Source: Chrysophaeum taylorii
Lineage: Eukaryota; Sar; Pelagophyceae; Pelagomonadales; Pelagomonadaceae
Length of the DNA: 64,000 nt
Direction: 5' to 3'
NCBI GenBank assembly: GCA_029834535.1
Contig: JAQMWT010000315.1
Location: 62,001-126,000 of the forward strand
Translations under genes and position numbers: made by a program
Part shown: positions 2,601 through 57,123 of the stretch, piece after piece
How positions within the stretch are numbered: the stretch's first letter is position 1
Layout of the letters: each line of letters starts with the position of its first letter
Notes under the pieces: model-generated
What the model was told of the DNA's origin: nothing
What the model saw: the letters and a program-made list of their open reading frames with translations, nothing else
Databases searched by the model: none

Positions 2601-3794
2601 TGCGTAGCGTGCGGAGAGAGTCATACGGACAGGGTGCTCGAGGAGCGCCAGGTGATGGAAGCCTGCGTGGGGGGATCGCGGAACGAAGGGCGAAGAGCAA
2701 GGAGCTAGGATAATAAGCAACATCAGAGGCGGACACGGCCGCTACGACGCGTTCGCCCACAAACACTCAAGAGAATGCCCTCGGAACTGTACGCCTCCCA
2801 CTCCGCTCCTGTATTACGTGCAAACAACCTCTGCGCACCTCTCGCTCCTTTGACTTCCCTTGTGGCTCTTTGCGTAGATGTTCTTTTCTCTTCCTCTGCG
2901 AGCATCCAACATTATTTATTTCTGGTTCTTTAAGCCTGGGAGTTGCAAGCGATTATAGAAATATTAATAGTACTTGCCTTCGCCCGTCTGTTTTGCCTTT
3001 TTTGCTTTCTCCATCGCCGTCCTCTGTGATCTTGTCACCCTTTTCGTTTTTGTCTTCCTTCGTGCGATCAACAGCAATTCCCGTCGTCGTGGCAGTCATA
3101 TCTAGCCGGCCGTTTGCGGTTTGGGCTTCGCTTGACCCGTCCGCCCGTTGGTACCTAGGCTTTCGTGTTTTATTCTAGGTCTGTGTGCACATTACGTGCT
3201 GAGCGGGATTACACGTTCGCCTTCTTGCAAAAGGGACGGCGGCCTTGGATTGTCCCATCTCCACGTTATAGTGCTTTAGGTTCGTTTTTCCTCTTTCCAC
3301 AACATTCGTCCAACCTGCGTTGAGCGGGATCCCTCTCCCACCTGATTACGATAGGCAGACTTGGATTGACGTGGGTGGTAATGGCGACGACGGCGGTCGC
3401 GGCGGCCCTGCCTCCTCCGAGCTAAGTCCCATCATCTCTCTCCCCCTAACACTCGTTCTGCCCCTGCCTCTCTTGCCTACGTGCTCTGCTTGCACTGCCC
3501 TTCTATTTCTTCTTCTCCGGTCGCAGTTTCCTGCACCACCGCTGTCGTCTGCGGTCTTTTCTTCGTTCTTTCTCTCTCTCTCTCTCTCCCCCTCTGCGAC
3601 CATCCATTCTTTCTCGTCGAGCCTGGGAGTTGCAAACCATCTGAGCGAGCGAGCGAGCGAGCGAGCGAGCTTCTGTCTGGCTTTTTATGCCATAAATTCA
3701 AAGTAATGCCGCCGAAAACATAGACTCATAATCCTTTGGTTGAAAAACTAGCCCTCTCGATCACTGCGGATGACGTCATCCATCTGCGTCGTCG
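2601..3794. repeat. Intergenic, low-complexity DNA with microsatellites
   Basis: No gene could be supported here. The + strand is pyrimidine-rich from about 2820 to 3640. There is a (TC)n run at 3571-3588 and a (GAGC)n run at 3643-3670. A degenerate direct repeat is present: the block around 2890-2950 (CTCTGCGAGCATCCA ... GCCTGGGAGTTGCAA) recurs at 3590-3636 (CTCTGCGACCATCCA ... GCCTGGGAGTTGCAA). Open frames here are Ser/Phe/Leu-rich translations of the pyrimidine tract and are not believable proteins. Confidence 0.6.
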
Positions 3795-36728: not shown

Positions 36729-38084
36729 ATCAGTTGCTTCGGACACATCCGCCCTCAACGAACGAATTTGCGATACTCGCTGCTGTGTGGTGCTTGCTCT
36801 GTCCCCTCCCTCTTCATTAACAGTCGCCATTTTATACCTGCGATACCCAGGACAGCGTTGCGTTCGATGAGCTTTCAAGGCCCCAGTAGTTCATTTGCCT
36901 TCTTCATTTCACTTGCTCGCAGATAACTGCGATTACGCGATACCTCCGACGAACAGAGTCGCGCTGAAGAGCCATAAACAAAATGAAAGCCATTTGATTA
37001 TGGCGCATGGAATCTTTCTTATCTATCTGTGCAATTGCGGTCGGCAGAGTGATTCTTTTAAGGGCACTCCAGTCAAGTTCAAGTGCGGTCTCGCACTCCA
37101 GACGGACTGCGTACCACGCGAGAGACATCCAAGCGAGCTTCGTCCAGAGGGCTTGCCAGCACCGACGAAATTACAGCCTGACTGTCTGAATGTCCCTTTT
37201 TTGTGAGTGTGATTGTCCAAAGGTCCAAAGGTCCAAAAACAGAACAAGCAACGCCATTGTGAACCACCACTGGGATCATCAAGCGTTGATGAAAACGACG
37301 ACAAACTCAAGGCCGCCGAAGCAGCTGTTGTTCGTCTGGTACGAGCACAATACGAAGGGCGCGGCGAAACGAAAATCAGCAGCAAAACGAAACAATGGCG
37401 GCCACAGCAACTATTTCACTTCCCCCCTGTCGAAGCAAGCGACATGGTGCGTACCTCCCTTTTTACAGTTTCTTCTTCTTCTTCTTCTTCTTCTTCTTCT
37501 TCTTCTTCTTCCTTGTCTGACATTCGGTCGCGACGCGTTTCCCCGCGTTTGCGCGGGCGCCATCGACGGGTATTTTTTTCGTCTGCCTGCTGCCGCCTCT
37601 CATCTGCGCGCGACGGAAAATAAAACTCCAACAAACAGGAAATCTAATCTTCAGTCTGTCAATCCGAGAGAGTGTACCACTTGGAGTACGCTCCGCGTTT
37701 AAGACCACCGCGGTGAGCAGTCCAATGCAGAGCACGCCACGAAAGACCGCCGCAACTGGGAACTTGAGAGGTACGTCGCCTGAATCATTGCCATTCTCAA
37801 AAAAAGCTCTGTAAAATCAATTTCGTGTGAATCCACAAGGCTGTAGGTGGAATTCATCATCAATTCAACTCGTAACCACCCAATGATGCCCGGGATGGCG
37901 GCGAGAAACGACACTGGTGCGCGCGTTCATTCAGGCGGCAGCAACAGCCATCAACGCGGAATGACGAGAAAAGAGCAGAGAGATAAGACAAAGACTCCCC
38001 ACACAACCCCCCCCCTCTTAGCAGTCGACATCCTAACTACTAATCAACAGATGTTTGTCTGTCTGTTTGTCTGTTTGTTTGTCC
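36729..38084. repeat. Intergenic, with (TTC)n microsatellite
   Basis: No gene could be supported. A (TTC)14 run lies at about 37470-37512. GGTCCAAA is tandemly repeated at 37217-37237. At 38000-38080 there is CCCCTCTTAGCAGTCGACAT and a (TGTTTGTC)n tract, members of the short-repeat family arrayed at 54656-55015. Confidence 0.55.
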
Positions 38085-39085
38085 CTCGATTTAGGGTAAG
38101 GATCAGGTAGGCCAGCGAGCCAGGCATTGATCCTCCAAGTCGTGTACGGCGACCTTGCAGACTGTTTCCAAGACCCGCGGCGGCTCTTTCAGCGCGCCAT
38201 TCTCACGCCCCGTCGAAACGATGTTGTCGATGCTGACAACGCGCGCATGACCTCGGCCTTTTTTTCCTGGAGACGAGGCGTTGGAGTTCTTTTCGGCCGA
38301 CTAGGTTGGGTCGGAAGACGACGCCTCGCTCTTGACAGTCGAGTTTTCAACTCCCTGACAACCAACGGCATGCTGACTTTGATCGCGAGCTTAAAGTCTT
38401 CGCAACCTCGACCCCGTCGCACGGCCACTGTAACGGTACCAGATACATGATCGATCGTGTCGTGTCACCGAGGCTCCTCCAACCTGGATCCCTTAAGGCC
38501 CGCCGACGCCAAACGATCACCAAGAGCCAGGGCCAGACGCCCCGCGAGGTCGGCGTCCTCTTGGCGAAGCCCGTCTTCTGCCACGTCCAGCTCTACGTGG
38601 CTCTCTGTCGATCGGCAACCCCGAGGATATCCTCTTCTTGGTCGACGACTCCACCCTACTCCACACGTGTTGCGCAATACCGACAAGCCCCCTCCCAGCG
38701 TCTACACGCGCACTATAGGTTAACTTACTGGGACCAGGTGAACTTACTTTTTTGGAACCAGGTGAACTTACGGAGGTTAGAGATTGGGACTAGGTGAACT
38801 TAGTGACCAGGTGAACTTACTGAGACCAAGTGTGAACTTACTGGGTTTTTTAGAGTAAACTCAAAGGTTAGCGGCGTGTGCGGATCAAAGCAGCTTAGAT
38901 TGGCGAGGGTGAGAGGGACGAGTTCAAAGGAGAGGGGTGAGTGGATGTGAGCAGGAGTGGGCTTACGCCGAACTTACTGGGGTTAGAGATTGGGACTAGG
39001 TGAACTTACTGGGACCAGGTGAACTTACTGGGGTTAGAGATTGGGAGTATGTGAACTTACTGGCGAACTTACTGGCCTGCACTTG
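38085..39085 (+). mobile_element. PIF1-helicase remnant unit 1 (Helitron-like)
   Basis: The unit begins at CGATTTAGGGTAAGGAT and ends at about GGCCTGCACTTGT. Its first 600 bases encode a broken helicase C-terminus (separate entry). The last 370 bases (38715-39085) repeat AGGTGAACTTACTGGGACC and GGGGTTAGAGATTGGGACTA many times. The same unit occurs inverted at 55016-55937 and direct at 56064-57036. PIF1-type helicases carried by repeats are typical of Helitrons, but the canonical Helitron CTRR end with hairpin was not found here, so the class is uncertain. Confidence 0.6.
38127..38710 (+). pseudogene. C-terminal PIF1-family helicase fragment
   Basis: Read across frames: VYGDLADCFQDP...LFQRAILTPRRNDVVDADNARM, the L-T-P-x-N-D-x-V motif; then HGHCNGTRYMIDRVV; then TITKSQGQTPREVGVLLAKPVFCH, where the family has INKSQGQT; then LYVALCR, where the family has LYVALSR (motif VI). 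Between SLKARRRQ and TITKSQGQT about 20-30 residues usually present (FPFTRRQFPVRLAFAM type) are missing, a deletion shared by the other two copies. No N-terminal ATPase motifs are present. A dead fragment. Confidence 0.75.
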
Positions 39086-39236: not shown

Positions 39237-39854
39237 ATGACGCGGCTGATAATATTCTGTCATGGGTCGGGGGACACGGGTGCCGGTGCAGAGGCTTGGG
39301 TGAGCGCCGTCGCCGACCCCTTGTTGCGCGAAAGGTTCGAGTGGGCGTTTCCGACGGCAAAGCGCATCCGATACTCCCTCGGCGGCAGCGAAGCGTCGGT
39401 GTGGTTTGACCGAAAGGGTGGGTTCGAGCCGACGTTTCCGGAACAAACGGCATCGGTAATCGCGTCCGTCGGGCGGCTCGAGCTGATCATCAACGAGTAC
39501 GAGCGGCGGGGGGTGACGCGCGACCGCATCGCCTTGGCGGGTTTTTCGATGGGCGGGGGCATCGCTCTGCAGGCGGCCGCGCGGCTCGAGATCGCAGCGG
39601 TCGCGGCGATCTCTTCGTATCTTTGCGACGATTCCCCCGCGTACGATCTCGAGTTCCCGCCCGTGTTCATGGCCCACGGCGCGGCCGACGAGTTCATTTC
39701 GGCGCGGTGGGGCGAGATGACGGCGAGGCGGATCGAAGCGACCGGAGGTCGCGTCCGGTTCCGGCTCTACGAAACGGTCGCCCACGAACTCGCCCCCGCG
39801 CCCCTCAACGACGCCCTCGCCTTTCTCGACGACATCATACCGAGAGTATCATGA
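39237..39854 (+). CDS. Acyl-protein thioesterase / lysophospholipase-like serine hydrolase
   Basis: 205 aa alpha/beta-hydrolase. MTRLIIFCHGSGDTGAGAEAW carries the oxyanion-hole HGSGDTG typical of APT1/LYPLAL1 proteins. The nucleophile elbow is AGFSMGGGIAL with S104, the acid is D151 in MAHGAADEF, and the base is H183 in TVAHELAP. The fold is complete and of normal length (about 220). These enzymes remove palmitate from proteins or hydrolyse lysophospholipids in the cytosol. The G-F-S-M-G-G elbow and short length fit the depalmitoylase branch, though some members are plain carboxylesterases. The stop TGA lies in TCATGA, whose other strand is the stop of the ORC2 gene, so the two convergent genes overlap by 6 bases. 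Confidence 0.85.
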   Translation: MTRLIIFCHGSGDTGAGAEAWVSAVADPLLRERFEWAFPTAKRIRYSLGGSEASVWFDRKGGFEPTFPEQTASVIASVGRLELIINEYERRGVTRDRIALAGFSMGGGIALQAAARLEIAAVAAISSYLCDDSPAYDLEFPPVFMAHGAADEFISARWGEMTARRIEATGGRVRFRLYETVAHELAPAPLNDALAFLDDIIPRVS

Positions 39855-42800
39855 TAATAATAATAAGGAAGTTGAGGTGGCGCGGGCGAGGATGGGGCCG
39901 ACGTAGGCGTCCGGCACGCGGTAGAGGTCGGCGCCGCGGTGGTGCTTGAGGCGGATGAGGTTGTGGTCGAGGAACTCTTGGAGGAAGGCGCGGGTCTGGT
40001 CCTCGGTGTGGGCGATCATGCGGCGGCGGGCCTTTTCGAAGATCTCGCGGAACGTGATACCCCCTTTCCCGAGGCTGTTGTTGTTCTTGTGGGCGGCGGC
40101 GATGAGGTGGAGGAGCTCGAGGTGGCGCGAGGTTAAAGAGGTGAGGACGTAGGAGAGGCCCTCTTCGGTGGTGGCGTCGAGGGTTGTCGGGGCGGGCCCG
40201 GACGCGAGGAGGGCGGCGGCGGGAGCCTCGTCGTCGTACCAGGCGAACGTCGTCGCGTCCGCGATCACCAAGTTGAAGGCGTTGGCGAGGCGCGCGTCCC
40301 ACATCAAGGGTGCGTTGACCGTGTCGACCGAGCACGCGAGGTGGACGCGCGGAGAAGATACGAGGGCCGCGAGCGCTCGTTGCGCGGACTCCGAGCGGAG
40401 GCGCGGTCCGTCGATGCTGTGGACGACGACGTGGACGCGGCTTTTGGCGGCCGCGGCGAGGCGCCGCGCGACAGCCCCCAAGGCCATCCCGCGAACATCA
40501 TCGATAGGAAGCCGCAGTTCTTTCGCGGCCGCGACGAGCTCGGCGCGCAGATCGAGGTCTCGTTTGAAGCCGTCGATCACGACGACCGTCCCAGACTTTG
40601 CGAGGTGCGACGCAGCAAACTTCTCCAAGACGCGTCTCTTCGACCCGAACCCCTGAAGCAGCAAGTTCGATCCGGCGAGGAGGATGGCGCCCCACCAAGG
40701 GAAACGAGCTTCGAGGTGCTCGGCGAACTCGGGCTCGAGCGGGGGTGGATCGCGGGCCGCGACGTAGGCTTCGACCTCGGCTGCAGTCGGCGCCTCGAGC
40801 GCTTCGTTGAGGCTGGCCTTGTCGCGGCGGCCGCCCGATCCCGATCCAGATCCCGATCCCGCGGCGGACGCGGCGGCGAGAAAGTACGCGCTCGCGCGCG
40901 GACACACGTCGCCGAACGCGCGGTCCCCCTCCGCCGAGGACTCGCCCGGACCGTCGTCGTCGACAGCCCGCGACACGAGCCAGTCCCCGAGCGCCGAGGG
41001 CAGCACCGCCGCCTCCACCTCCTCCTCCTCGCCCCCCATCCGCATCACGACCTCGGGATCTTTCCGAACGTGATCGACGACATCGTTCGCGCACAAAAAC
41101 ACCCTCGAGTCCGGGGCGACGTACACCAGCCCCCCGCGGGCCTCGAGGTCTGACGAGCTCTTGTGCGTCCACCCCATCTCCTGCAGGATCCTGTAGAGGG
41201 ACCCAAAGCCCTCGAACCGCCGATCGAAGCTCCGCTCGGTCGTTGTTGGTTCTGACGAATCCTCGCGGCTGTTCAAACCTGAGTTTCTCTGCAACTCTGG
41301 TAGACCGAGACCCGACAGCCACGCGTCAAACATATCCTCGGGCATCGACACGCTGCTCGCGACACTCTCGTCGCAGGTGCTGTCGGGTACCTGCGCGCGC
41401 GACTCCGCATCGACAACAACCGAAAAAAGCGAATCCTCGTCCCGCGTCGGAGCGTCCGCCGCGCTGCGAGCTGCCGACGGTTCGTCGTCCTCCTCCTCCG
41501 ACTCAAACGACGACACCACCGCCACCACCGGACCCCCTTCCTCCGACTCGCAGTAGTCATCTCGTACCGCCTCCGAGGAGGAGTCGTCGTCGTCGTCATC
41601 GTCCTCCTCCTCCTCCTCCTCCAAACGTGCGACTTCTTCGTCCTCTTGTACCGACGTGTCGACTATCCGCACCGTTGTTGTCGGGTCAACAACGTTTATC
41701 CACTCCTCGTGGATGCTTCCGGTGCGACTCTTCGCGTCGATGCGATGCTCCTCGAGCCACTGGAGGACGCGCTCGGGATTCACAAAGTAGTGGACGTCCT
41801 CCATACCGCCAACCATGCAGCTGGCGCCAGGTCGATAGTACAGGTAGTCCTGGAGTTCGTTCTTTCCCTTGCGCCACGTCCACCCGCAACTTTGGAGCGT
41901 CTTCCATGCTTGAGACCACGGCAACTCCCACAACTCCTCGGTCCCGGGCGTATGGACGGGCTTGCTCCTCTTGGCGCGCTTTGGGGCGCGCGTGGTCGTC
42001 ACTTGCGCTGGCGCCGGCGCAGGTTCGGCGGTCGTCGAGCACCTGGCGGTGGTCGCGCGCAAGCGCGGTTCCAACCTGCCGACCGTAGAGGATGGGTCGT
42101 CTTGTGACGTGCTGTGCTGCGTGTGGTACTCCTCGCGGATGCTCCCGGTGCGACTATCAGCATCGATACGATGCTCCTCGAGCCACTGTAGAACACGCTC
42201 GGGATTCGCAAAGTAGTGGACATCCTCCATCGCGCCAACCATGCAGCTGGCGCCAGGCCGATAGTACAGGTAGTCCTGGAGTTCGTTCTTTCCCCTGCGC
42301 CACGTCCAGCCGCAACCTTGGAGCGCCTTCCAGACTTGAGACCAAGGTAATTCCCACAACTCCTCGGTCCCGGGCGTGTAGACAGGCATGCTTCTCTTGT
42401 TGCGCTTTGGGGCGCGCGTAGTCATCACTTGCGCTGGCGCAGGTTCGGCGGTCGTCGAGCCCCTGGCGGTGGTCGCGCGCAAGCGCGGTTGCAACCTGCC
42501 GACCGTAGAGGATGGGTCGTCTTGTGACGTGCTGTGCTGCGTGTGGTACTCTTCGTGGATGCTCCCGGTGCGACTGTCAGCATCGATGCGATTCTCCTCG
42601 AGCCACTGCAGAACACGCTCGGGATTCGCAAAGTAGTGGACATCCTCCATCGCGCCAACCATGCAGCTGGCGCCAGGCCGATAGTATAAGAAGTCCTGGA
42701 GTTCGTTCTTTCCCCTGTGCCACGTCCAGCCGCAAGCTTGGAGCATCTTCCAAACATGGGTCCAAGGCAACTCCCACACCTCCTCGGTCCCGGGCGTGTA

Positions 42801-45800
42801 GACAGGCTTGCTTCTCTTGTTGCGCTTTGGGGCGCGCGTAGTCGTCACTTGCGCTGGCGCAGGTTCGGCGGTCGTCGAGCCCCTGGCAGCCGTCGCACGC
42901 AAGCGCGGTTCCAACCTGCCGACTGTAAAAGATGGGTCGTCTTGTGACGTGCTGTGCTGCGTGTGGTACTCCTCGTGGATGCTCCCGGTGCGGCTATCAG
43001 CATCGATACGATGCTCCTCGAGCCACTGTAGAACACGCTCGGGATTCGCAAAGTAGTGGACATCCTCCATCGCGCCAACCATGCAGCTGGCGCCAGGCCG
43101 ATAGTACAGGTAGTCCTGGAGTTCGTTCTTTCCCCTGCGCCACGTCCAGCCGCAACCTTGGAGCGCCTTCCAGACTTGAGACCAAGGTAATTCCCACAAC
43201 TCCTCGGTCCCGGGCGTGTAAACAGGCATGCTTCTCTTGTTGCGCTTTGGGGCGCGCGTAGTCATCACTTGCGCTGGCGCAGGTTCGGCGGTCGTCGAGC
43301 CCCTGGCGGTGGTCGCGCGCAAGCGCGGTTGCAACCTGCCGACCGTAGAGGATGGGTCGTCTTGTGACGTGCTGTGCTGCGTGTGGTACTCTTCGTGGAT
43401 GCTCCCGGTGCGACTGTCAGCATCGATGCGATTCTCCTCGAGCCACTGGAGGACACGCTCGGGATTCGCAAAGTAGTGGACATCCTCCATCGCGCCAACC
43501 ATGCAGCTGGCACCAGGCCGATAGTATAGGAAGTCCTGGAGTTCGTTCTTTCCCCTGTGCCACGTCCAGCCGCAAGCTTGGAGCATCTTCCAAACATGGG
43601 TCCAAGGCAACTCCCACACCTCCTCGGTCCCGGGCGTGTAGACAGGCTTGCTTCTCTTGTTGCGCTTTGGGGCGCGCGTAGTCGTCACTTGCGCGGTGGT
43701 CGAGCCTCTGGCAGCCGTCGCACGCAAGCGCGGTTCCAACCTGCCGACTGTGGAGGATGGGTCGTCTTGTGACGTGGTGTGCGTGTGGTACTCCTCGTGG
43801 ATGCTGCCTGTGCGACTATCAGCATCGATGCTATTCTCCTCGAGCCACTGGAGGACACGCTCGGGATTCGCAAAGTAGTGGACATCCTCCATCGCGCCAA
43901 CCATGCAGCTGGCGCCAGGCCGATAGTACAGGTAGTCCTGGAGTTCGTTCTTTCCCCTGTGCCACGTCCAGCCGCAAGCTTGGAGCATCTTCCAGACTTG
44001 AGACCAAGGTAATTCCCACAACTCCTCATTCACGGGCGTCTCGACGGGCTTTCTTCTCTTGTTGCGCTTTGGGGCGCGCGTAGTCGTCACTTGCGCTGGC
44101 GCAGGTTCGGTGGTCGAGCCCCTGGCAGCCGTCGCACGCAAGCGCGGTTCCAACCTGCCGACTGTAGAGGATGGGTCGTCTTGTGACGTGGTGTGCGTGT
44201 GGTACTCCTCGTGGATGCTGCCTGTGCAACTATCAGCATCGATGCTATTCTCCTCGAGCCACTGGAGGACACGCTCGGGATTCGCAAAGTAGTGGACATC
44301 CTCCATCGCGCCAACCATGCAGCTGGCGCCAGGCCGATAGTACAGGTAGTCCTGGAGTTCGTTCTTTCCCCTGTGCCACGTCCAGCCGCAAGCTTGGAGC
44401 ATCTTCCAAACATGGGACCATGGCAACTCCCACAACTCCTCGGTCCCGGGCGTGTAGACAGGCTTGCTTCTCTTGTTGCGCTTTGGGGCGCGCGTAGTCG
44501 TCACTTGCGCTGGCGCAGGTTCGGTGGTCGAGCCCCTGGCAGCCGTCGCACGCAAGCGCGGTTCCAACCTGCCGACTGTGGAGGATGGGTCGTCTTGTGA
44601 CGTGGTGTGCGTGTGGTACTCCTCGTGGATGCTGCCTGTGCGACTATCAGCATCGATGCTATTCTCCTCGAGCCACTGGAGGACACGCTCGGGATTCGCA
44701 AAGTAGTGGACATCCTCCATCGCGCCAACCATGCAGCTGGCGCCAGGCCGATAGTACAGGTAGTCCTGGAGTTCGTTCTTTCCCCTGTGCCACGTCCAGC
44801 CGCAAGCTTGGAGCATCTTCCAGACTTGAGACCAAGGTAATTCCCACAACTCCTCATTCACGGGCGTCTCGACGGGCTTTCTTCTCTTGTTGCGCTTTGG
44901 AGCGCGCGTTGTCGTCGCTAACGCCGGCGCAGGTTCGGTGGTCGAGCCCCTGGCGGTGGTCGCACGCAAGCGCGGTTGCAACCTGCCGACCGTAGAGGAC
45001 TTGTCTTGAGTAGGAACGGGCGCGCGGTACTCTTCATGAATGCTCCCGGTGCGACTATCAGCATCGATGCGATTCTCCTCGAGCCACTGTAGAACACGCT
45101 CGGGATTCGCAAAGTAGTGGACGTCCTCCATACCGCCGACCATGCAGTTGGCGCCAGGCCGATAGTATAGGAAGTCCTGGAGTTCGTTCTTTCCCCTGCG
45201 CCACGTCCAGCCGCAACCTTGGAGCGCCTTCCAGACTTGAGACCAAGGTAATTCCCACAACGCCTCATTCCCGGGCGTCTCGACGGGCTTTCTTCTCTTG
45301 TTGCGCTTTGGAGCGCGCGTTGTCGTCGCTGGCGCCGGCGCAGGTTCGGTGGTCGAGCCCCTGGCGGTGGTCGCACGCAAGCGCGGTTGCAACCTGCCGA
45401 CTGTAGAGGACTTGTCTTGAGTAGGAACGGGCGCGCGGTACTCTTCGTGGATGCTGCCTGTGCGACTATCAGCATCGATGCTATTCTCCTCGAGCCACTG
45501 GAGGACACGCTCGGGATTCGCAAAGTAGTGGACGTCCTCCATACCGCCGACCATGCAGTTGGCGCCAGGCCGATAGTATAGGAAGTCCTGGAGTTCGTTC
45601 TTTCCCCTGCGCCACGTCCAGCCGCAACCTTGGAGCGCCTTCCAGACTTGAGACCAAGGTAATTCCCACAACTCTCCGGGCGTATGGAGAGCCATCGTTG
45701 TTGTTGTTGTTGTTATTGTTGTTGTCTTGGTGCGCTTGGGGGGACTTGTCGTAGGTGCCGGCGCTGGTTCAGAAGAAGACAGAGGGAAGGTGGTCGCTCC

Positions 45801-47618
45801 CCTCGTGGATTGGAGACTTGCATCATCGTTGTCGACGTCATCGTCACGTAGGTATTCATCATCGACGTGACCGATTCTGTCGACACCGTCGAGTCGATGC
45901 TTCTTGACAAACCGCTGCACAGCAGTCGGGCTCTCGAAGTAATCAGTACCCTTAACCGCAGCCCCGACGCTCCCAACGCCGGGACGTAGGTACAAGCGCG
46001 AGCCGTTCGCGCCCTCGACGCATCGCCAGCCGCTGCCGAGCAGCGCTGCCCACTGGGGCCCGAATCCTCGGTGCCACAACGGACGGCTGTCCGCTGGCTT
46101 GTCGTTGGCGAGGACAAATTCGCCTTGGAGCATTCGATTGGGCACCCGAGCGCGGCGAGTCCGGCGCGGCAGATCCGACGTCAGTTTGGCGAGGCGGCCA
46201 ATCGGCGAATCGGCGAGCTCCGCTTCGTCGACGTGGCCCATTCTCGTCTCGCCGTCGATTTTCCAGTACTTTGCGAAGGTTGGCAGCTCGGAGATGCCGA
46301 AGTAGTGCGTCCCTCGACGCGCGCCAGCCTTGATCGACGGCGCGCCCGGTCGAAAGTACAACCACGAATCGAGTCCAAATCCATTCTTATACACCCACCC
46401 GCACCGAGACCGGAGAAATTCCCACAGCTCGTGCGATGGCAGCTCCCACGGCCGCTCCTCCTCCTCTTGGTCGTCGTCGTCGTCGTCCTCTTCCACCTGC
46501 GTCCGTCGATACGGCGGCGTCGGCGGCGGCGGCGCGTCTTCGTCGACGTGGCCGGTGCGACGCTCGCCGTCGAGGCGCCAGTCGCGAGCGAAAGTTCTGA
46601 CGTCGTCCGGCGTCGCAAAGAACTCCCGGCCGAGCTGACCTCCTTGCCGCGCGGGCTTGGCGCCTGGGCGGAAGTACAAGTAGTAGTCGAGGCCCGAGCC
46701 CGGCTTGTACGACCAACCTAAGGTTTTGAGAGTCTCGAGGAGGATCGTCCAGTCGCGGCACCAGAGAGGCTCCTCCTCGTCGACGTGGCCAATCCTGCTT
46801 TGGCCGTCGATCTCGTTTCGCTCGATGAAGGCGGCGACGTCGAGCTCCGACGCGAAGTAGTGGTGTCCCAGTCGCGGCGCTGGCAGTTCTCGCGCTCCTG
46901 GTCGGAAGTAGCGAGTCGGACCGCGTAAAGACGTCTCGATCCTCCACCCGAGCTGCTGCAGTCTGGACAGCATGCTCTGGCCGGCTAGGGCGCTCAGCAA
47001 CGGGACCGGATCGGACGGAGACACCTCGAGCGGACTGGAGACGTCGTCGCGAGCCGTCGAGGCTCGCTCGGTTCGCTCGCCCCGGTCTCGATCGGTTTCC
47101 GCCAAAGTCGTCGAGCTCGGCGCCGGTACAACTTTTTCTTGGGTCTCAGGCGGCGGTGGCGGCGCGAGAACGGGCGGCAAAGCGGGCGGCGAGCTACGCG
47201 CGACGAGAGGTGGGACGACGACGGGTTGTCGCCGGTCTACCACCTGCTGGGGCGTCGGTAGAGCGGGGGGCGAGCATTTAGCGACGAGAGGCGGGACCTC
47301 GTCGAACGTCGCTGGCCTGAGTTCGTCGGGGATGCGCTGCGGCGAGAGGTCGCCTCGCGAGGGCCGTCGGAGCGGGGCGTCGAGGAGGCCGAGGGCCGCG
47401 TTCGGACAGGCGATATTATTATTATTATTATTATTAGACGCCCTCAAGAACGCCTCGGCGGCGGCGCTGTCGGCGAACCAATCGACGCCCTCGACGCCGC
47501 CGTCGGCTCGCACGATGCGGTTGTTCGCGAATCGCCACCCGCGCGACACGAGAACCCTGTGGAAGAGCTCGAAGAAGTTCCAACTGAGCTCGTCGGGGGC
47601 GAGGAGGCAATCGTCCAT
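39849..47618 (-). CDS. ORC2: Giant ORC2 fused to an N-terminal array of Trp/Tyr-rich repeats (2589 aa)
   Basis: The C-terminal ~300 residues (about 2290-2589) are ORC2: NLLLQGFGSKRRVLEKFA, VVVIDGF, VHVVVHSIDGPRLRSESAQRAL, VHLACSVDTVNAPLMWD, then the winged-helix part ending HNLIRLKHHRGADLYRVP. This order matches human ORC2 (YGLGSKR, INGF, IHNLD..LR.EKSQ, IDHLNAPLMWD). Upstream lie four divergent modules (about 211-590) and ten nearly identical ones (about 640-1980): ELWELPWSQVWKALQGCGW, then YYRPGA, then VHYFANPERVLQWLEE, then R-T-G-S-I-H-E-E-Y, joined by Thr/Pro/Lys linkers. An acidic run (EEEEEDDDDDDD) and a degenerate module (LYRILQEMGWTHK) precede ORC2. Normal ORC2 is about 500-600 aa. 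One uninterrupted frame of 7.8 kb through near-identical repeats argues that the protein is made. The start is 73 bases from the divergent STPG gene. Confidence 0.88.
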   Translation of the reverse strand: MDDCLLAPDELSWNFFELFHRVLVSRGWRFANNRIVRADGGVEGVDWFADSAAAEAFLRASNNNNNNNIACPNAALGLLDAPLRRPSRGDLSPQRIPDELRPATFDEVPPLVAKCSPPALPTPQQVVDRRQPVVVPPLVARSSPPALPPVLAPPPPPETQEKVVPAPSSTTLAETDRDRGERTERASTARDDVSSPLEVSPSDPVPLLSALAGQSMLSRLQQLGWRIETSLRGPTRYFRPGARELPAPRLGHHYFASELDVAAFIERNEIDGQSRIGHVDEEEPLWCRDWTILLETLKTLGWSYKPGSGLDYYLYFRPGAKPARQGGQLGREFFATPDDVRTFARDWRLDGERRTGHVDEDAPPPPTPPYRRTQVEEDDDDDDQEEEERPWELPSHELWEFLRSRCGWVYKNGFGLDSWLYFRPGAPSIKAGARRGTHYFGISELPTFAKYWKIDGETRMGHVDEAELADSPIGRLAKLTSDLPRRTRRARVPNRMLQGEFVLANDKPADSRPLWHRGFGPQWAALLGSGWRCVEGANGSRLYLRPGVGSVGAAVKGTDYFESPTAVQRFVKKHRLDGVDRIGHVDDEYLRDDDVDNDDASLQSTRGATTFPLSSSEPAPAPTTSPPKRTKTTTITTTTTTMALHTPGELWELPWSQVWKALQGCGWTWRRGKNELQDFLYYRPGANCMVGGMEDVHYFANPERVLQWLEENSIDADSRTGSIHEEYRAPVPTQDKSSTVGRLQPRLRATTARGSTTEPAPAPATTTRAPKRNKRRKPVETPGNEALWELPWSQVWKALQGCGWTWRRGKNELQDFLYYRPGANCMVGGMEDVHYFANPERVLQWLEENRIDADSRTGSIHEEYRAPVPTQDKSSTVGRLQPRLRATTARGSTTEPAPALATTTRAPKRNKRRKPVETPVNEELWELPWSQVWKMLQACGWTWHRGKNELQDYLYYRPGASCMVGAMEDVHYFANPERVLQWLEENSIDADSRTGSIHEEYHTHTTSQDDPSSTVGRLEPRLRATAARGSTTEPAPAQVTTTRAPKRNKRSKPVYTPGTEELWELPWSHVWKMLQACGWTWHRGKNELQDYLYYRPGASCMVGAMEDVHYFANPERVLQWLEENSIDADSCTGSIHEEYHTHTTSQDDPSSTVGRLEPRLRATAARGSTTEPAPAQVTTTRAPKRNKRRKPVETPVNEELWELPWSQVWKMLQACGWTWHRGKNELQDYLYYRPGASCMVGAMEDVHYFANPERVLQWLEENSIDADSRTGSIHEEYHTHTTSQDDPSSTVGRLEPRLRATAARGSTTAQVTTTRAPKRNKRSKPVYTPGTEEVWELPWTHVWKMLQACGWTWHRGKNELQDFLYYRPGASCMVGAMEDVHYFANPERVLQWLEENRIDADSRTGSIHEEYHTQHSTSQDDPSSTVGRLQPRLRATTARGSTTAEPAPAQVMTTRAPKRNKRSMPVYTPGTEELWELPWSQVWKALQGCGWTWRRGKNELQDYLYYRPGASCMVGAMEDVHYFANPERVLQWLEEHRIDADSRTGSIHEEYHTQHSTSQDDPSFTVGRLEPRLRATAARGSTTAEPAPAQVTTTRAPKRNKRSKPVYTPGTEEVWELPWTHVWKMLQACGWTWHRGKNELQDFLYYRPGASCMVGAMEDVHYFANPERVLQWLEENRIDADSRTGSIHEEYHTQHSTSQDDPSSTVGRLQPRLRATTARGSTTAEPAPAQVMTTRAPKRNKRSMPVYTPGTEELWELPWSQVWKALQGCGWTWRRGKNELQDYLYYRPGASCMVGAMEDVHYFANPERVLQWLEEHRIDADSRTGSIREEYHTQHSTSQDDPSSTVGRLEPRLRATTARCSTTAEPAPAPAQVTTTRAPKRAKRSKPVHTPGTEELWELPWSQAWKTLQSCGWTWRKGKNELQDYLYYRPGASCMVGGMEDVHYFVNPERVLQWLEEHRIDAKSRTGSIHEEWINVVDPTTTVRIVDTSVQEDEEVARLEEEEEEDDDDDDDSSSEAVRDDYCESEEGGPVVAVVSSFESEEEDDEPSAARSAADAPTRDEDSLFSVVVDAESRAQVPDSTCDESVASSVSMPEDMFDAWLSGLGLPELQRNSGLNSREDSSEPTTTERSFDRRFEGFGSLYRILQEMGWTHKSSSDLEARGGLVYVAPDSRVFLCANDVVDHVRKDPEVVMRMGGEEEEVEAAVLPSALGDWLVSRAVDDDGPGESSAEGDRAFGDVCPRASAYFLAAASAAGSGSGSGSGGRRDKASLNEALEAPTAAEVEAYVAARDPPPLEPEFAEHLEARFPWWGAILLAGSNLLLQGFGSKRRVLEKFAASHLAKSGTVVVIDGFKRDLDLRAELVAAAKELRLPIDDVRGMALGAVARRLAAAAKSRVHVVVHSIDGPRLRSESAQRALAALVSSPRVHLACSVDTVNAPLMWDARLANAFNLVIADATTFAWYDDEAPAAALLASGPAPTTLDATTEEGLSYVLTSLTSRHLELLHLIAAAHKNNNSLGKGGITFREIFEKARRRMIAHTEDQTRAFLQEFLDHNLIRLKHHRGADLYRVPDAYVGPILARATSTSLLLLS
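41690..45690 (-). repeat. Tandem array of ten ~420-bp coding repeats in ORC2
   Basis: Unit length is mostly 420 bases (140 codons); three units lack small in-frame blocks (for example AEPA or Q/H codons), giving 405-414. Block CATCCTCCATCGCGCCAACC recurs at 42220, 42640, 43060, 43480, 43890, 44300 and 44715. The five units at the high-coordinate (N-terminal) end differ most in their linkers (VNEELW versus GTEELW). A higher-order pair (units starting near 42360 and 42780 in + coordinates, then 43200 and 43620) repeats with 840-base period. Confidence 0.9.
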
Positions 47619-51238: not shown

Positions 51239-51651
51239 CTCCCGCCTCGCCGAGCGCTGGACGGTTTGTCTCGTCATCCCGGGCCGCGCGGCGGTCCGCC
51301 GTCGCTCTCCACAAAGGGGCGACGCGGCTAACCGCGAGAAAAACCGGAAGACGTCCGTCCTAAGCAGTCTTGCGTCCTATAGGTAATTTCTCTTTCTAGC
51401 AAATAACTTACGGCTTATCTTTTTTCCTAATCTTCTTTCTTCCTGGTGGTTTGGAAGCAGTCTTGCGTCCTATAGGTAATTTCTCTTTCTAGCACACGCA
51501 AAAAGAAAATACGGATGACAGGACAGGACGCCTATTGAACTTCCCGTTTTTCGCGATCCGTTTAGTATGCAATGTACTGATATACTGATCTGGCGACGAC
51601 GATTTCGCGCACGTATTAATCACCCGAAGAGCTCTTGCTTTTCAACCAAAG
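51239..51651 (+). repeat. ~410-bp dispersed repeat, copy 1
   Basis: From CTCCCGCCTCGCCGAGC to CTCTTGCTTTTCAACCAAAG, closely matching 58322-58775. It contains two internal copies of AGCAGTCTTGCGTCCTATAG (51363 and 51458) with GTAATTTCTCTTTCTAGCA after each. The ends are not TG...CA and carry no terminal inverted repeat, so the element class is unclear. It ends just before the 3' end of the kinase gene. Confidence 0.75.
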
Positions 51652-51745
51652 CATAACGAACCGTTTCATGGGCTCTTAGTTCCAAGAACGGGAGCCCCCG
51701 TGGGCAGCCACCCCGGGGGGTTAGTTTCTTGGCCGTCGTTGACAC

Positions 51746-54304
51746 TCACATCGAGGCGGGAGGCAGGGTGGGCGAAGCGGTACGCGTAGTCGTCGGAGAA
51801 GCCTCCTGCACCCCGTCGGGCCTCGGCACCCCCGGCGCGACACAGCCCCAGCGGGCAAGGCAAGTGCGGATCTGCGAGATGGTGGCGGGCTTGTTGAGGA
51901 CATCGTTCGCTCCGCACTCCATGAGACTTCGGCGGTCATCTTCGAACGCGTTGCCGGTGAGGGCGATGATGATCAGGACGTCCGGACCGTGGCCCGAGTC
52001 ACGGATCTCGCGAATGGCGACGTCGCCGCTTTTTATCGGCATGACGACGTCGGTCACGATGACGTCGTAGGGCTTGCGTCGCGCGGCCGCCTGTTGGACC
52101 TTGTCCACCGCCTCCTGGCCGTTCTCGGCGAGGTCCACGCTGAAGTTGAGCTTTTTGAGGATGTAAGCGCATAGCCTGCGATTGGATTCGACGTCGTCGG
52201 TAACGAGCGATCGCACGCTCCGGTCCTCGGAGACGCATTGTCGGTAGAGCGGCATCGCCAGCGCGAGGCTGTCTGGTGCAGTGCTGCTCGAGGAATCGGC
52301 GAAGAGGCTGGTGGTGTTCGCGTCGGGTCTTGGCTGAAGAGCGGCACCGACACGGACCTTGAACCAAAACGTCGAGCCCGTGCCCTCGCCCGCGGAGAAG
52401 GCGCCGATCGTACCGGCATGACGCTCGATTATTTGTCGCGAGATCGCGAGCCCGAGGCCCGTGCCGCGGCCGGCTCGGACGTCACCTGGGCGGATCTGAA
52501 AAAATGGCTGGAAAAGCCGGGCTTGATGCGATTGCGATATGCCAACACCCTCGTCGGCAACGCTGACGAAGAGCTCGAGCTCTTCGGCCGCGAAGACGCG
52601 ACGCAGTCCGTCGGGCGCGTCGTCCAAGTCTCGCGAGCCGCGTATCGAGAGCCCCACCGGTCTCGCGGTGTATTCTATGGGCCACGTGACGCTCGTCGCC
52701 TCGGGGAGCTGTGGTTCATCTTTGACCTGCCGAAGACCAGCCGAGACTGTGATCGTCTGTCCGGAAGCCGAGAACTTGATCGCGTTTGATACGAAGCTGG
52801 CAATAACTTGGCGCAGCCGGACGCTATCGCCAACGAGTCTTGTGGTGGATTTGAGAGGGGAGTAGGGTGGCTCGACTACGTCGGCCGTCAAGATCGTGAC
52901 GGCCTTATTTTTGGCCGCGTTCTCGAGCGTCTTGACGACGCTACGGGTCATATCTACGGGCGAGAACTCGAGCGCCACGAGCTCGAAGGCGCCCTCCTCA
53001 ATTTTCTGGAAAGACAGGACGTCGTCGAGCGTTTCGCTCATATGTCTGACCGACTCCGTGATGTTACTCGCGACCTCCTTGCCTAACGACGTCAGCGTCT
53101 CGTGCTCGATCATCGCTTCGATACCGATGCTAACCGAGTTCAACGGGACTCGCACCTCGTGGCACACGTATCTCAAAAACTGCTTGAAGCTTGAGTTGGC
53201 GCGTTCCTCAGCCTGAAGTAAGAGATGCAACAGTTTTTCTTGACTCTGAGTCTGCGTGTGCAACCGCGTCAACATTGTCGACAACATCAGCTTGCTCGCG
53301 GCGTCGACGATGACGGTCATCGTCTCTTCGGCCGCTACGGAGTAAAGCTGCAGAATGCCGGCGAGCGTGGCCACCACGAAGACGGTCCACGTGATAGAGC
53401 ACATATTCGCCATGGCGGCGCTCATGCACAGCGTCGTGATATCCTGGTCCAAAAGTAGCTGGATGGCCGACGTCGATGCGTTCTGGGGGTAAATACTTGA
53501 CATGCCCGGGAGCAGCGTTTTAGTTCCGGCGTCCTTACCCCGCTCAATGTTGGACGCGTGCTTAGAGTATGCATTTTTTAGCTCGTAAATCCGCGCTACC
53601 TTCCGCGTCCTGTCCGCGCTTATCTTGAAAGTCCGGCAATACATGACGGTCGCGACGCAGTTGCACGCGAGATACACAGGCTTGTCAAAAGGCAACGAGA
53701 CGAACGCAAACACGAGCGATCCTTCGAGAACCGCGACACTCATCAACGTCTCGTTGCGGGAACGGGGCGTGTATTGCTGCCCCAGCGTCAGCATGAGGAC
53801 GACGATGATGGGGAGAGTCGCGAGCCACTCGCCCATTCTCTCCCAACGCACCGGTCGCCCGTACGGCGACTCTGCCGGCTTGAATGCGCCCACCGCCGTC
53901 AGTATGTGCCCGACGCACGCGATGAAGGTACACACGGTTGCGCACATGATCGGCAAATGTCGATGCGGTGCGTGGATCGTGTCGATGAACGATGCGAAGT
54001 TCATCATTGTCGCCACACAAAACATCGACGACGTCATCGAGGCGATCCACGATGGGTTCTCGCTGCGCTTGAGCTTGAGAACTTGCCAGCACCATACCAA
54101 CCACAACGCCATGAAAACTACGCCGTAGCCGCAAGCTGCGGGCGCATAGTACCGCAGAGAGCTCGATAGCGATGCGTGGTTCAACACCTGCGCGTGCTTA
54201 TCCTGGTGTTCGACCGGTGGCCTCTCCCCAACGTTGGGCACACTCCGCCCGAACGGCACGACCCGCATCGGCAACTTACGGAAGCGTCTTGGGGCTGGTC
54301 GCAT
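51746..54304 (-). CDS. Hybrid histidine kinase with microbial-rhodopsin-like membrane domain (histidine-kinase rhodopsin)
   Basis: 852 aa. About eight hydrophobic helices fill residues 58-348. Helix C reads R156-M-G-E159-W160-L-A-T163-L-P165, aligning to R82...D85-W86...T89...P91 of bacteriorhodopsin. Helix F has W306-T-V-F-V-V-A-T-L-A-G. The last helix has V-D334-A-A-S-K338, matching D212/K216, where Lys forms the retinal Schiff base. One extra N-terminal helix, as in other enzymerhodopsins, gives eight. Then come the phospho-accepting H382 (RYVCHEVRVPLNS), N box (SNAIKFSASG), G1 (DEGVGIS), F box (FQPFFQ) and G2 (GTGLGLAISRQ), and a receiver with acid pair DD, phospho-acceptor D of VIVTDVVMP (about 751), T of ALTG and K of NKPA. 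Predicted role: retinal-based light sensor driving a phosphorelay. The long helix E-F loop (about 60 residues) is unusual. Identification of the rhodopsin part is by motif only. Confidence 0.8.
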   Translation of the reverse strand: MRPAPRRFRKLPMRVVPFGRSVPNVGERPPVEHQDKHAQVLNHASLSSSLRYYAPAACGYGVVFMALWLVWCWQVLKLKRSENPSWIASMTSSMFCVATMMNFASFIDTIHAPHRHLPIMCATVCTFIACVGHILTAVGAFKPAESPYGRPVRWERMGEWLATLPIIVVLMLTLGQQYTPRSRNETLMSVAVLEGSLVFAFVSLPFDKPVYLACNCVATVMYCRTFKISADRTRKVARIYELKNAYSKHASNIERGKDAGTKTLLPGMSSIYPQNASTSAIQLLLDQDITTLCMSAAMANMCSITWTVFVVATLAGILQLYSVAAEETMTVIVDAASKLMLSTMLTRLHTQTQSQEKLLHLLLQAEERANSSFKQFLRYVCHEVRVPLNSVSIGIEAMIEHETLTSLGKEVASNITESVRHMSETLDDVLSFQKIEEGAFELVALEFSPVDMTRSVVKTLENAAKNKAVTILTADVVEPPYSPLKSTTRLVGDSVRLRQVIASFVSNAIKFSASGQTITVSAGLRQVKDEPQLPEATSVTWPIEYTARPVGLSIRGSRDLDDAPDGLRRVFAAEELELFVSVADEGVGISQSHQARLFQPFFQIRPGDVRAGRGTGLGLAISRQIIERHAGTIGAFSAGEGTGSTFWFKVRVGAALQPRPDANTTSLFADSSSSTAPDSLALAMPLYRQCVSEDRSVRSLVTDDVESNRRLCAYILKKLNFSVDLAENGQEAVDKVQQAAARRKPYDVIVTDVVMPIKSGDVAIREIRDSGHGPDVLIIIALTGNAFEDDRRSLMECGANDVLNKPATISQIRTCLARWGCVAPGVPRPDGVQEASPTTTRTASPTLPPASM

Positions 54305-54351
54305 CTACCCAACTTTTCTTTTGGGTGCACCAAAAACCGTTTCAACGCATG

Positions 54352-54451
54352 TGTTGCACTTTCACGTCAGAATAAACGTTGCCGATAAGCACTTACTATG
54401 AAACTTATTAGGCACGTATTGCACTTTCACGTCAGAATAAACTTTGCCGAT
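54352..54451 (+). repeat. Duplicated 35-bp block upstream of the kinase gene
   Basis: TTGCACTTTCACGTCAGAATAAAC(G/T)TTGCCGAT occurs at 54355-54386 and 54419-54451, separated by AAGCACTTACTATGAAACTTATTAGGC. That separator recurs at 57037-57063 beyond the palindromic region. Confidence 0.7.
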
Positions 54452-54473: not shown

Positions 54474-54655
54474 TTTGTCGGTTTGCACGACCTCGCACAA
54501 GACCGCGCGCAGTGGCGGTCCACCATCAACAAGCCCGTCCTCGTCCCTCGCCTCTGCCCCAACTGCGTGATTTTCCTCTGTGATTCCGTACCGGCTCCTG
54601 CCGGTCCGGCCTGGCTCCCATGCTCGGGAGAGGTCTGAAGTTAGTTAGTTAGTTA
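54474..54655 (+). mobile_element. LINE 3' end remnant
   Basis: Encodes LHDLAQDRAQWRSTINKPVL and VPRLCPNCVIFLCDS, the last residues of a LINE ORF2 (L-A-x-DR-x-x-WRS), then the family's 3' sequence CTGGCTCCCATGCTCGGGAG and a TTAG tail (54640-54655). Over ~170 bases it matches the insert at 36500-36670 very closely. Confidence 0.75.
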
Positions 54656-55015: not shown

Positions 55016-55275
55016 GCCAGTAAGTTCGCCAGTAAGTTCACCTAGTCCCAATCTCTAACCCCAGTAAGTTCGGCGTAAGCCCACTCGTGCTCACATCCAC
55101 TCACCCCACTCTCCTTCGAGCTCGTCGCTGTCGCCTCCGCCAATCTAAGCTGCTTCGATCCGCACACGCCGCTAACCTTTGAGTTTACTCTAAAACCCCC
55201 AGTAAGCTCACCTGGTCCCAGTAAGTTCACCTGGTCACTATATTCACCTAGTCCCAATCTCAAACCCCAGTAAGT

Positions 55276-55893
55276 TCACCTGGTCCCAGTAAGTTCACCT
55301 ACAGTGCGCGTGTAGACGCCGGGAGGGGGCTTATCGGTATTGCGCAGCACGTGTGGGGTAGGGTGGAGTCGTCGACTCAGAAGAGGATATCCTCGGGGTT
55401 GCCGATCGACAGAGAGCCACGTAGAGCTGGACGTGGCAGAAGACGGGCTTCGCCAAGAGGACGCCGACCTCGCGGGGCGTCTGGCCCTGGCTCTTGGTGA
55501 TCGTTTGGCGTCGGCGGGCCTTACGGGATACAGGTTGGAGGAGCCTCGGTGACAACGACACGATCGATCATGTATCTGGTACCGATGCAGTGGCCGTGCG
55601 ACGGGTCGAGGTTGCGAAGACTTTAAGCTCGCGATCAAAGTCAGCATGCCGTTGGTTGTCAGGGAGTTCAAAACTCGACTCTTGAGAGCGAGGCGTCGTC
55701 TTCCGACCCAACCTAGTCGGCCGAAAAGAACTCCGACGCCTCGTCTCCGGGAAAAAAAGGCCGCGGTCATGCGCGCGTTGTCAGCATCGACAACATCGTT
55801 TCGACGGGGCGTGAGATGAATGGCGCGCTGAAAGAGCCGCCGCGGGTCGTGGAAACAGTCTGCGAGGTCGCCATAGACGGCTTGGAGGATCAC
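55276..55893 (-). pseudogene. PIF1-family helicase C-terminal fragment, left arm
   Basis: Same motifs and same internal deletion as 38127-38710: LFQRAIHLTPRRNDVVDADN, TITKSQGQTPREVGVLLAKP and LYVALCR, in changing frames on the minus strand. Confidence 0.7.
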
Positions 55894-56105
55894 TGCCTGC
55901 CTGGCTCGCGGGCCTACCTAATCCTTACCCTAAATCTAAGGACAGTACCTACTCCTTACCCTAAATCGAGAGGGACAGACAAACAAACAAAAAAACAAAA
56001 ACAAACAAACATCTGTCGATTAGTAGTTAGGACTGCTAAGAGGGGGGTGTGTGTGGGGAGTCCTTCGATTTAGGGTAAGGATGAGGTAGGCGCGCGAGCC
56101 AGGCA

Positions 56106-56709
56106 GTGATCCTCCAAGTCGTCTACGGCGACCTCGCAGACTGTTTCCACGACCCGCGGCGGCTCTTTCAGCGCGCCATTCTCACGCCCCGTCGAAACGA
56201 TGTTGTCGATGCTGACAACGCGCGCATGACCGCGGCCTTTTTTTCCCGAAGACGAGGCGTCGGAGTTCTTTTCGGCCGACTAGGTTCTGGGTCGGAAGAC
56301 GACGCCTCGCTCTTTACAGTCGAGTTTTCGACTCCCTGACAACCAACGGCATGCTGACTTTGATCGCGAGCTTAAAGTCTTCGCAACCTCGACCCGTCGC
56401 ACGGCCACTGCAACGGTACCAGATACATGATCGATCGTGTCGTGTCACCGAGGCTCCTCCAACCTGTATCCCTTAAGCCCCACCGACGCCAAACGATCAA
56501 CAAGAGCCAGGGCCAGACGCCCCGCGAGATCGGCGTCCTCTTGCCCAAGCCCGTCTTCTGTCACGTCCAGCTCTACGTGGCTCTCTGTCGATCGGCAACC
56601 CCGAGGATATCCTCTTCTGGGTCGACGACTCCACCCTACCCCACACGTGCTGCGCAATACCGATAAGCCCCCTCCCGGCGTCTACACGCGCACTATAGGT
56701 GAACTATAA
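56106..56709 (+). pseudogene. PIF1-family helicase C-terminal fragment, right arm
   Basis: LFQRAILTPRRNDVVDADNA, then across a shift DEASLFTVEF, HGHCNGTRYMIDRVV, TINKSQGQTPREIGVLLPKP (the intact NKSQGQT motif) and LYVALCR. Of the three fragments it is closest to a functional helicase sequence (INKSQGQT rather than ITKSQGQT), but it is still truncated and frame-shifted. Confidence 0.7.
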
Positions 56710-57123
56710 CTGGGACCAGGTGAACTTACTGGGGTTTGAGATTGGGCCTAAGTGAATATAGTGACCAGGTGAACTTACTGGGACCAGGTGAGCTTACTGG
56801 GGGTTTTAGAGTAAACTCGAAGGTTAGCGGCGTGTGCGGATCGAAGCAGCTTGGATTGGCGGAGGCGAGAGCGACGAGCTCGAAGGAGTGGGTGTGAGCA
56901 CGAGTGGGTTTACGCCGAACATACTGGGGTTAGAGATTTGGACTAGGTGAACTTACTGACCAGGTGAACTTACTGGGACTAGGTGAACTTACTGGGGTTA
57001 GAGATTGGGACTAGGTGAACTTACTGCCCTACACTTGTAAGCACTTATTATGAAACTGATTAGGCTGGTCGTTACGACAAGATCCGAACTTGTAAAAAGT
57101 AGATGTGGCTGGGTCGTTTAGAA

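Follow-up and report, generated by a model that had tools for sequence, protein, structure and literature searches.

A candidate histidine-kinase rhodopsin in the pelagophyte alga Chrysophaeum taylorii

Rhodopsins fused to histidine kinases (histidine-kinase rhodopsins, HKRs) have been described from green algae (PMC6284317, PMC11621555, PMC7693036, PMC12558739), and putative HKRs, assigned to clade C, from the cryptophyte Guillardia theta (PMC7714340). A related enzyme rhodopsin, Rh-PDE of Salpingoeca rosetta, is described as carrying Glu164 and Asp292 at its two counterion positions, Trp175 at the position of the bacteriorhodopsin proton donor D96, and an extra N-terminal helix, TM0 (PMC7644710). 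Here we analyzed a 64,000-nucleotide stretch of the Chrysophaeum taylorii genome (the window), part of contig JAQMWT010000315.1 (C315) in an assembly of 70.8 Mb and 697 contigs; the published figures are 71 Mb and 702 contigs (PMC10366177). On the minus strand, an open reading frame (ORF) occupying 51746-54304 starts with ATG and runs uninterrupted for 852 amino acids, and its Pfam matches and checked residues lay it out as a rhodopsin-like sensor followed by a hybrid histidine kinase and a receiver. We read the product, with a probability of about 0.68, as an HKR of the eight-helix enzyme-rhodopsin type that would pass a light signal into a phosphorelay; it is probably a divergent member, in a new lineage, of this known class and not a new kind of system. 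We found no pelagophyte paper on such a protein in the open-access literature searched, which left most subscription papers outside and in which the pelagophyte and rhodopsin papers were mostly unread, and the main text of the C. taylorii genome paper does not contain the word rhodopsin (PMC10366177).

A Pfam search with the full protein returned Bac_rhodopsin (expectation value, E, of 5.8e-6) together with HisKA, HATPase_c and Response_reg. Residues 40-356 alone matched Bac_rhodopsin (PF01036) at 7.9e-7 with 29.2 bits against a curated cut-off of 24.6. At E up to 10 the Pfam matches included no MASE, 7TMR or CHASE family and, in the 852-residue protein, no PAS, HAMP or cyclase family, bearing in mind that the HMMER filters remove most matches above E ~0.1. 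This outcome agrees with an earlier reading made from the DNA letters alone (the sequence-only reading), which had proposed a rhodopsin domain here over a MASE or 7TMR domain. The kinase half is complete in the same ORF, with its catalytic residues. It comprises a HisKA dimerization and phospho-acceptor domain with H382 (52991-53182; PF00512, 3.6e-10), an ATP-binding catalytic domain with N507, D584 and the GTGLGL motif (52349-52984; PF02518, 3.8e-21) and a receiver domain with the phospho-acceptor D752 (51863-52207; PF00072, 5.1e-18); all of these, like the gene features below, are on the minus strand. The residue numbering of the sequence-only reading was borne out at 23 of 23 residues checked, including R156, E159, W160, T163, P165, L170, W306, D334 and K338, and the kinase and receiver residues that it had listed as all present are in place (H382, N507, D584, D703, D704, D752, T783 and K805). 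The ORF stops 38 residues beyond the receiver match, and no cyclase domain of the 2c-Cyclop type was found there. M1 directly follows a stop codon and lies outside the frame of a second gene copy on contig C468; M13 (codon at 54266-54268), the first methionine common to the two copies on comparison, is an alternative start.

With E no higher than 10, all 12 PDB matches to the membrane half were microbial rhodopsins, with Rh-PDE among the top four; one of the 12, 6k6i, is titled a chloride importer and also matches channelrhodopsin-2. We scored the domain with rhodopsin profiles against shuffles that preserve the composition of each helix and loop segment. A profile of four reference rhodopsins gave 20.1 bits, compared with 12.0 for the best of 1000 shuffles and -3.7 for the reversed sequence, and helices A-C alone gave 19.3 bits (best of 2000 shuffles, 15.6). 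Helices F-G alone scored 7.9 bits with W306, D334 and K338 in register, against 7.3 for the best of the 1989 shuffles scored out of 2000, so the match of this second half is significant, though narrowly. An 81-sequence profile, made of the four references and 77 of 80 prokaryotic loci (mostly haloarchaeal; three were dropped by motif and length filters), gave 24.2 bits on the intact domain and at most 9.6 on 2000 shuffles. When residues 233-284 of the loop between helices E and F were removed, a single alignment ran through helices A-G with 31.7 bits, compared with 16.2 for the best of 4998 scored shuffles out of 5000 trimmed in the same way; the reversed trimmed domain gave 0.8 bits. For comparison, the sensor of a different membrane-bound hybrid kinase of C. 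taylorii, on contig C314, scored -0.2 bits with the same rhodopsin profile. These scores support a more-than-chance homology of the membrane half to rhodopsins.

The loop-trimmed alignment places R156, E159, W160, T163 and P165 on R82, D85, W86, T89 and P91 of bacteriorhodopsin, and W306, E326, D334 and K338 on W182, E204, D212 and K216, in agreement with the equivalences proposed by the sequence-only reading. The helix C motif R156-x2-E159-W160-x2-T163-x-P165 lies at 53810-53839 and the helix G motif D334-x3-K338, with the predicted retinal Schiff-base lysine, at 53291-53305. The seven predicted rhodopsin helices span residues ~86-349 (53258-54049), the first half of which is covered by PF01036 and the whole by the end-to-end alignment without the loop. 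They are preceded by a putative TM0 at residues ~54-76 (54077-54145), seen as a hydropathy segment at 54-72 ahead of the Pfam rhodopsin match, which starts at residue 86. In Kyte-Doolittle profiles with 19-residue windows, the region before residue 350 contains nine segments with a mean of at least 1.0 and five with at least 1.3; the eight helices counted by the sequence-only reading are consistent with this profile, and their exact number leans on the alignment to rhodopsins. Lysine and arginine number 21 in the inside loops and 5 in the outside loops; in density (21/144 versus 5/24 residues, with hand-set boundaries) they are not higher inside. By sequence, the lysine, both counterion positions, a complete kinase and receiver, and a direct link from helix G to the kinase are all present, and the candidate HKR proposed from the letters alone is supported by Pfam, by the shuffles and by the complete kinase and receiver.

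Two of the features that the sequence-only reading had called unusual proved to be ordinary. Rh-PDE has a glutamate at the position of D85; this Glu164 is considered to be in the protonated state and Asp292 to act as the sole counterion (PMC7644710). A set of 47 modular rhodopsins from green algae is reported to have Asp or Glu at position 85 in 14 members and Gln in 17, and to retain Asp96 in one and Asp212 in all but six (PMC7693036). As both Rh-PDE and the green-algal set show these features, Glu at position 85 and the absence of the D96 donor are ordinary in enzyme rhodopsins; L170 does occupy the D96 position as had been stated. The E-F loop is as long as had been claimed, at ~61 residues (229-289, boundaries set by hand; 53438-53620 from the alignments), and would be cytoplasmic by rhodopsin topology. 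Helix G leads straight to the kinase by a linker (residues 350-374, 53183-53257, from Pfam and the residue check), and the 32 residues from helix G to H382 (350-381) have hydrophobic positions at a spacing of 3-4 (heptad phases 2 and 5), fitting a continuous signaling helix into the kinase. The odder points, judged from the residues, appear to be this run of helix G ~30 residues into the kinase, the ~60-residue E-F loop and the loss of the pocket residues P186 and W189, which the sequence-only reading had missed.

If the protein is an HKR, retinal would be bound to K338 as a Schiff base, D334 would be the charged counterion and E159 beside it would probably be protonated, as in Rh-PDE. Light would isomerize the retinal and shift helices F and G, and helix G, prolonged over ~30 residues as a coiled-coil-like linker into the helix of H382, could carry the shift to the kinase and alter autophosphorylation at H382. 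Phosphate would then pass to D752, and from there to an HPt partner and a response regulator. We infer retinal binding, the light response and its sign, dimerization and downstream partners from these features. The green-algal relatives that bear a cyclase are light-inhibited, which bears on the sign of the response.

Over 2,777 aligned bases (51653-54413 of the window, without strand), the second copy, on C468, matches the window copy at 97% identity, and on either side this similarity ends just beyond the gene. The frame is intact in each copy, with 852 and 874 codons; R156, E159, W160, T163, P165, W306, D334 and K338 are identical in the C468 copy, which scored 25.1 bits against PF01036 in a six-frame scan. 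Because the similarity is bounded by the gene and distinct repeats lie at the edges, the two look like dispersed paralogues and not alleles. The public protein P0001 (CTAYLR_006994; 788 residues) lies letter-for-letter within the C468 copy. Its gene model begins at M65, without TM0; its rhodopsin domain, at 21.4 against the cut-off of 24.6, is unannotated, and the public annotation reads hypothetical protein or histidine kinase, with PF01036 absent from the precomputed domains. The rhodopsin half was probably overlooked because this model starts at M65 and falls just under the Pfam cut-off. Between the two copies, kinase residues 350-655 differ by 11 changes that are synonymous and 2 that are non-synonymous (neutrality rejected at p 9e-6; omega ~0.05). 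This strong purifying selection shows that the kinase is functional and gives no such indication for the sensor. The most amino-acid changes fall in the E-F loop (11 non-synonymous, 2 synonymous). An older rhodopsin-kinase copy is represented on contig C526 (372347-372589, minus strand; ~3351-3590 of locus L009) by a decayed relic of helices F-G that is 36% identical and carries one stop, with the Trp and Lys kept and the Asp lost.

High-copy interspersed repeats, each with at least ~50 matches in the genome, flank the gene: one at 51380-51655 on its 3' side terminates at the border of the duplicated unit, and one at 54482-54655 on its 5' side starts ~70 bases beyond it. These flanks hint at repeat-mediated duplication. 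A different interspersed repeat of ~1 kb occurs in the window at 38030-39064, 55028-56033 and 56072-57038, the last two copies in opposite orientation and adjoining the HKR gene, and in four tandem copies near one end of C468.

Several results weigh against the HKR reading and are given here with the alternatives on which they bear. The membrane half might be some other multi-helix sensor in which Asp-x3-Lys and Arg-x2-Glu-Trp arose by convergence or chance, and a number of the scores are indeed marginal: the best single PDB match has E 0.0042, with Rh-PDE at 0.017-0.024, hhalign with two-row and four-row alignments aligned helix C only (probability 20.5%), and the C468 copy searched as protein reached 23.1 and 21.4 bits against the PF01036 cut-off. 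With the E-F loop left in, both profiles placed helices F-G out of register, over helices D-E, and the trimming was chosen only after the intact-domain alignment had shown this, in the same run. A protein-database word search with three queries (residues 40-400, 4200 candidates; 290-388, 91; and 94-194 with a shorter parent, 58) found no relative outside C. taylorii, returning P0001 alone for the first two and nothing for the third; this is weak evidence, because the method requires shared exact words. The NCBIfam membrane family MAB_1171c matched at 2.5e-5, yet with 23.5 bits against its own cut-off of 100, whereas Bac_rhodopsin stands above its own. None of the 4998 scored shuffles reached the colinear A-G score, and F-G alone exceeded, narrowly, every shuffle scored, and we consider an origin outside the rhodopsins very unlikely.

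More of the adverse evidence bears on a sensor that descends from a rhodopsin, with its fold and lysine, and has a pocket without retinal that senses something other than light, a possibility that has been discussed for the part that Chlamydomonas COP5/HKR1 plays with ammonium. In the loop-trimmed alignment P186 is replaced by V310 and W189 by T313, both near-invariant pocket positions that are not strictly defining, Y83 is replaced by M157, and T90 and G122 are also not kept, the MAFFT placement of D115, G122 and helices D-E being uncertain; Y57 corresponds to H133 by one alignment only. Just 13 of the 35 columns conserved at 90% or more in rhodopsins are identical. The sensor (residues 53-349) differs between the copies by 19 non-synonymous and 8 synonymous changes, indistinguishable from neutrality (p 0.50), and by 8 and 6 without the E-F loop (p 0.11), and is under weaker constraint than the kinase (p 0.0019 by Fisher's test, or 0.046 when the loop is excluded). 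The relic on C526 has kept the Lys and Trp without the Asp, and knock-outs of COP5, the Chlamydomonas COP5/HKR1, are reported to fail in ammonium chemotaxis (PMC11621555). Against this, both copies retain R156, E159, W160, T163, P165, W306, D334 and K338, COP6 is described as working without D85, D96 and D212 (PMC7693036), and Rh-PDE works with a Glu at the W189 position (PDB alignment); we regard loss of light sensing as an unlikely explanation. It is scarcely probable that the window copy is a non-functional recent duplicate in decay: the duplication is confined to 51653-54413, with repeats at or near both edges, and a decayed older piece exists on C526, but the frames are intact in both copies and the omega of the kinase is ~0.05.

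Under the preferred HKR reading, we put forward tentatively, at rather less than even odds, that the protein is the first receptor known from an ochrophyte to feed a phosphorelay under light control through retinal, with helix G joined directly to the kinase helix, free of PAS, HAMP and cyclase domains, with a remodeled ring end of the pocket and a large, fast-changing cytoplasmic E-F loop that possibly contacts the kinase and sets its output; the two recent, dispersed copies may be diverging there. Were it photoactive, it would stand as the single microbial rhodopsin detected in the C. taylorii assembly, and light-driven two-component signaling would reach the photosynthetic stramenopiles, beyond the green algae and a cryptophyte. 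With its short direct linker, it would offer a compact system in which to study the control of a histidine kinase by a rhodopsin, and one of interest for optogenetic design.

An intron-blind six-frame scan of the 70.8 Mb with PF01036 at E up to 1 found two loci only, the window and C468 copies. Two loci of the carotenoid-oxygenase (RPE65) family were found in the genome, and one of them (L037) matches structures of a carotenoid cleavage dioxygenase, a carotenoid isomerooxygenase and a beta-carotene 15,15'-monooxygenase, so retinal is plausibly made in C. taylorii. Sixteen receiver matches, both HKR copies included, occur in the assembly, and some are probably bacterial. An HPt-like exon on C249 with the motif AHSIKG scores just under the Pfam cut-off (23.6 bits against 24.6). 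A downstream phosphorelay partner is thus likely to exist. An HPt on C138 (L019), above the cut-off, and a LytTR-type regulator in a 38% GC stretch on C301 (L024) are presumably bacterial. Because of this bacterial look, and because 12 bacterial genomes are reported from the same culture (PMC10366177), both candidates were set aside as partners. The algal assembly may still contain bacterial contigs.

Thirteen loci bearing a receiver or a kinase were read, of which 11 yielded a frame close in length to that reported (L027 on C314 and L035 on C466 were left out). A sensor common to the other hybrid kinases of the genome found no support, as among these 11 only L032 on C314 (1471-3315, minus strand) has a clear N-terminal run of membrane helices; the three strong hydrophobic segments at the N-terminus of this membrane-bound hybrid kinase are of another type, which we take to resemble an ethylene-receptor-type sensor. 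A match on C420 (E 0.016, two stops) was judged to be chance, and tblastn on L122 (the larger stretch L123 not included) failed to reproduce it. Three scans of viral contigs turned up no relative of the sensor, the four-rhodopsin profile or the whole protein, a weak negative because the rhodopsin profile failed to retrieve any viral rhodopsin; to that extent the scans gave no support to a giant-virus origin. Fifty-five phage records matched, and in the eight listed the match begins at residue 305 or later, mainly in the kinase part; prokaryote genomes scanned with the sensor gave nothing. Elsewhere in the window, a 2589-residue open frame (39849-47618, minus strand) has a domain of ORC2 (origin recognition complex subunit 2) at its end and a stretch of ~9.6 tandem copies of a 420-bp repeat (41702-45674) within it; if one gene, it would encode an ORC2 with a very long repetitive N-terminal extension. 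A plus-strand frame at 47692-48774 matches the sperm-tail PG-rich repeats of SHIPPO, a family linked to cilia. Neither an Rfam scan nor a tRNA scan gave a match in the window.

As described, COP5/HKR1, Ot-HKR and 2c-Cyclops (COP6) share with the Chrysophaeum protein a rhodopsin followed by histidine kinase and receiver in one chain, and the green-algal HKRs and 2c-Cyclops also have the extra N-terminal helix that is predicted here and share the almost constant absence of Asp96 (PMC6284317, PMC7693036, PMC11621555). Unlike COP6 and the 2c-Cyclops, the Chrysophaeum protein has no cyclase after the receiver, and unlike the green-algal HKRs, compared by descriptions only, it has a long E-F loop and has lost the pocket Pro and Trp. 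HKR1 is far longer than 852 residues. The Guillardia theta HKRs, by their description, likewise join a rhodopsin to a histidine kinase in a secondary-plastid alga outside the green algae (PMC7714340). Rh-PDE (7d7q, 7cj3) resembles our protein in having TM0 and seven helices, as predicted for ours, Glu164 and Asp292 where we place E159 and D334, no D96, a Phe at Y185 (Phe267 in Rh-PDE) and a residue other than Trp at W189, whereas its output is a phosphodiesterase behind a 76-residue linker (PMC7644710, PDB alignment). In the PDB alignment Rh-PDE retains the helix-F Pro, which the Chrysophaeum protein does not. With the bacteriorhodopsin family (PF01036) our protein shares R82, W86, T89, P91, W182, E204, D212 and K216, and it differs from bacteriorhodopsin in the Glu for D85, the missing proton donor, the loss of Y83, P186 and W189, and the fused kinase.

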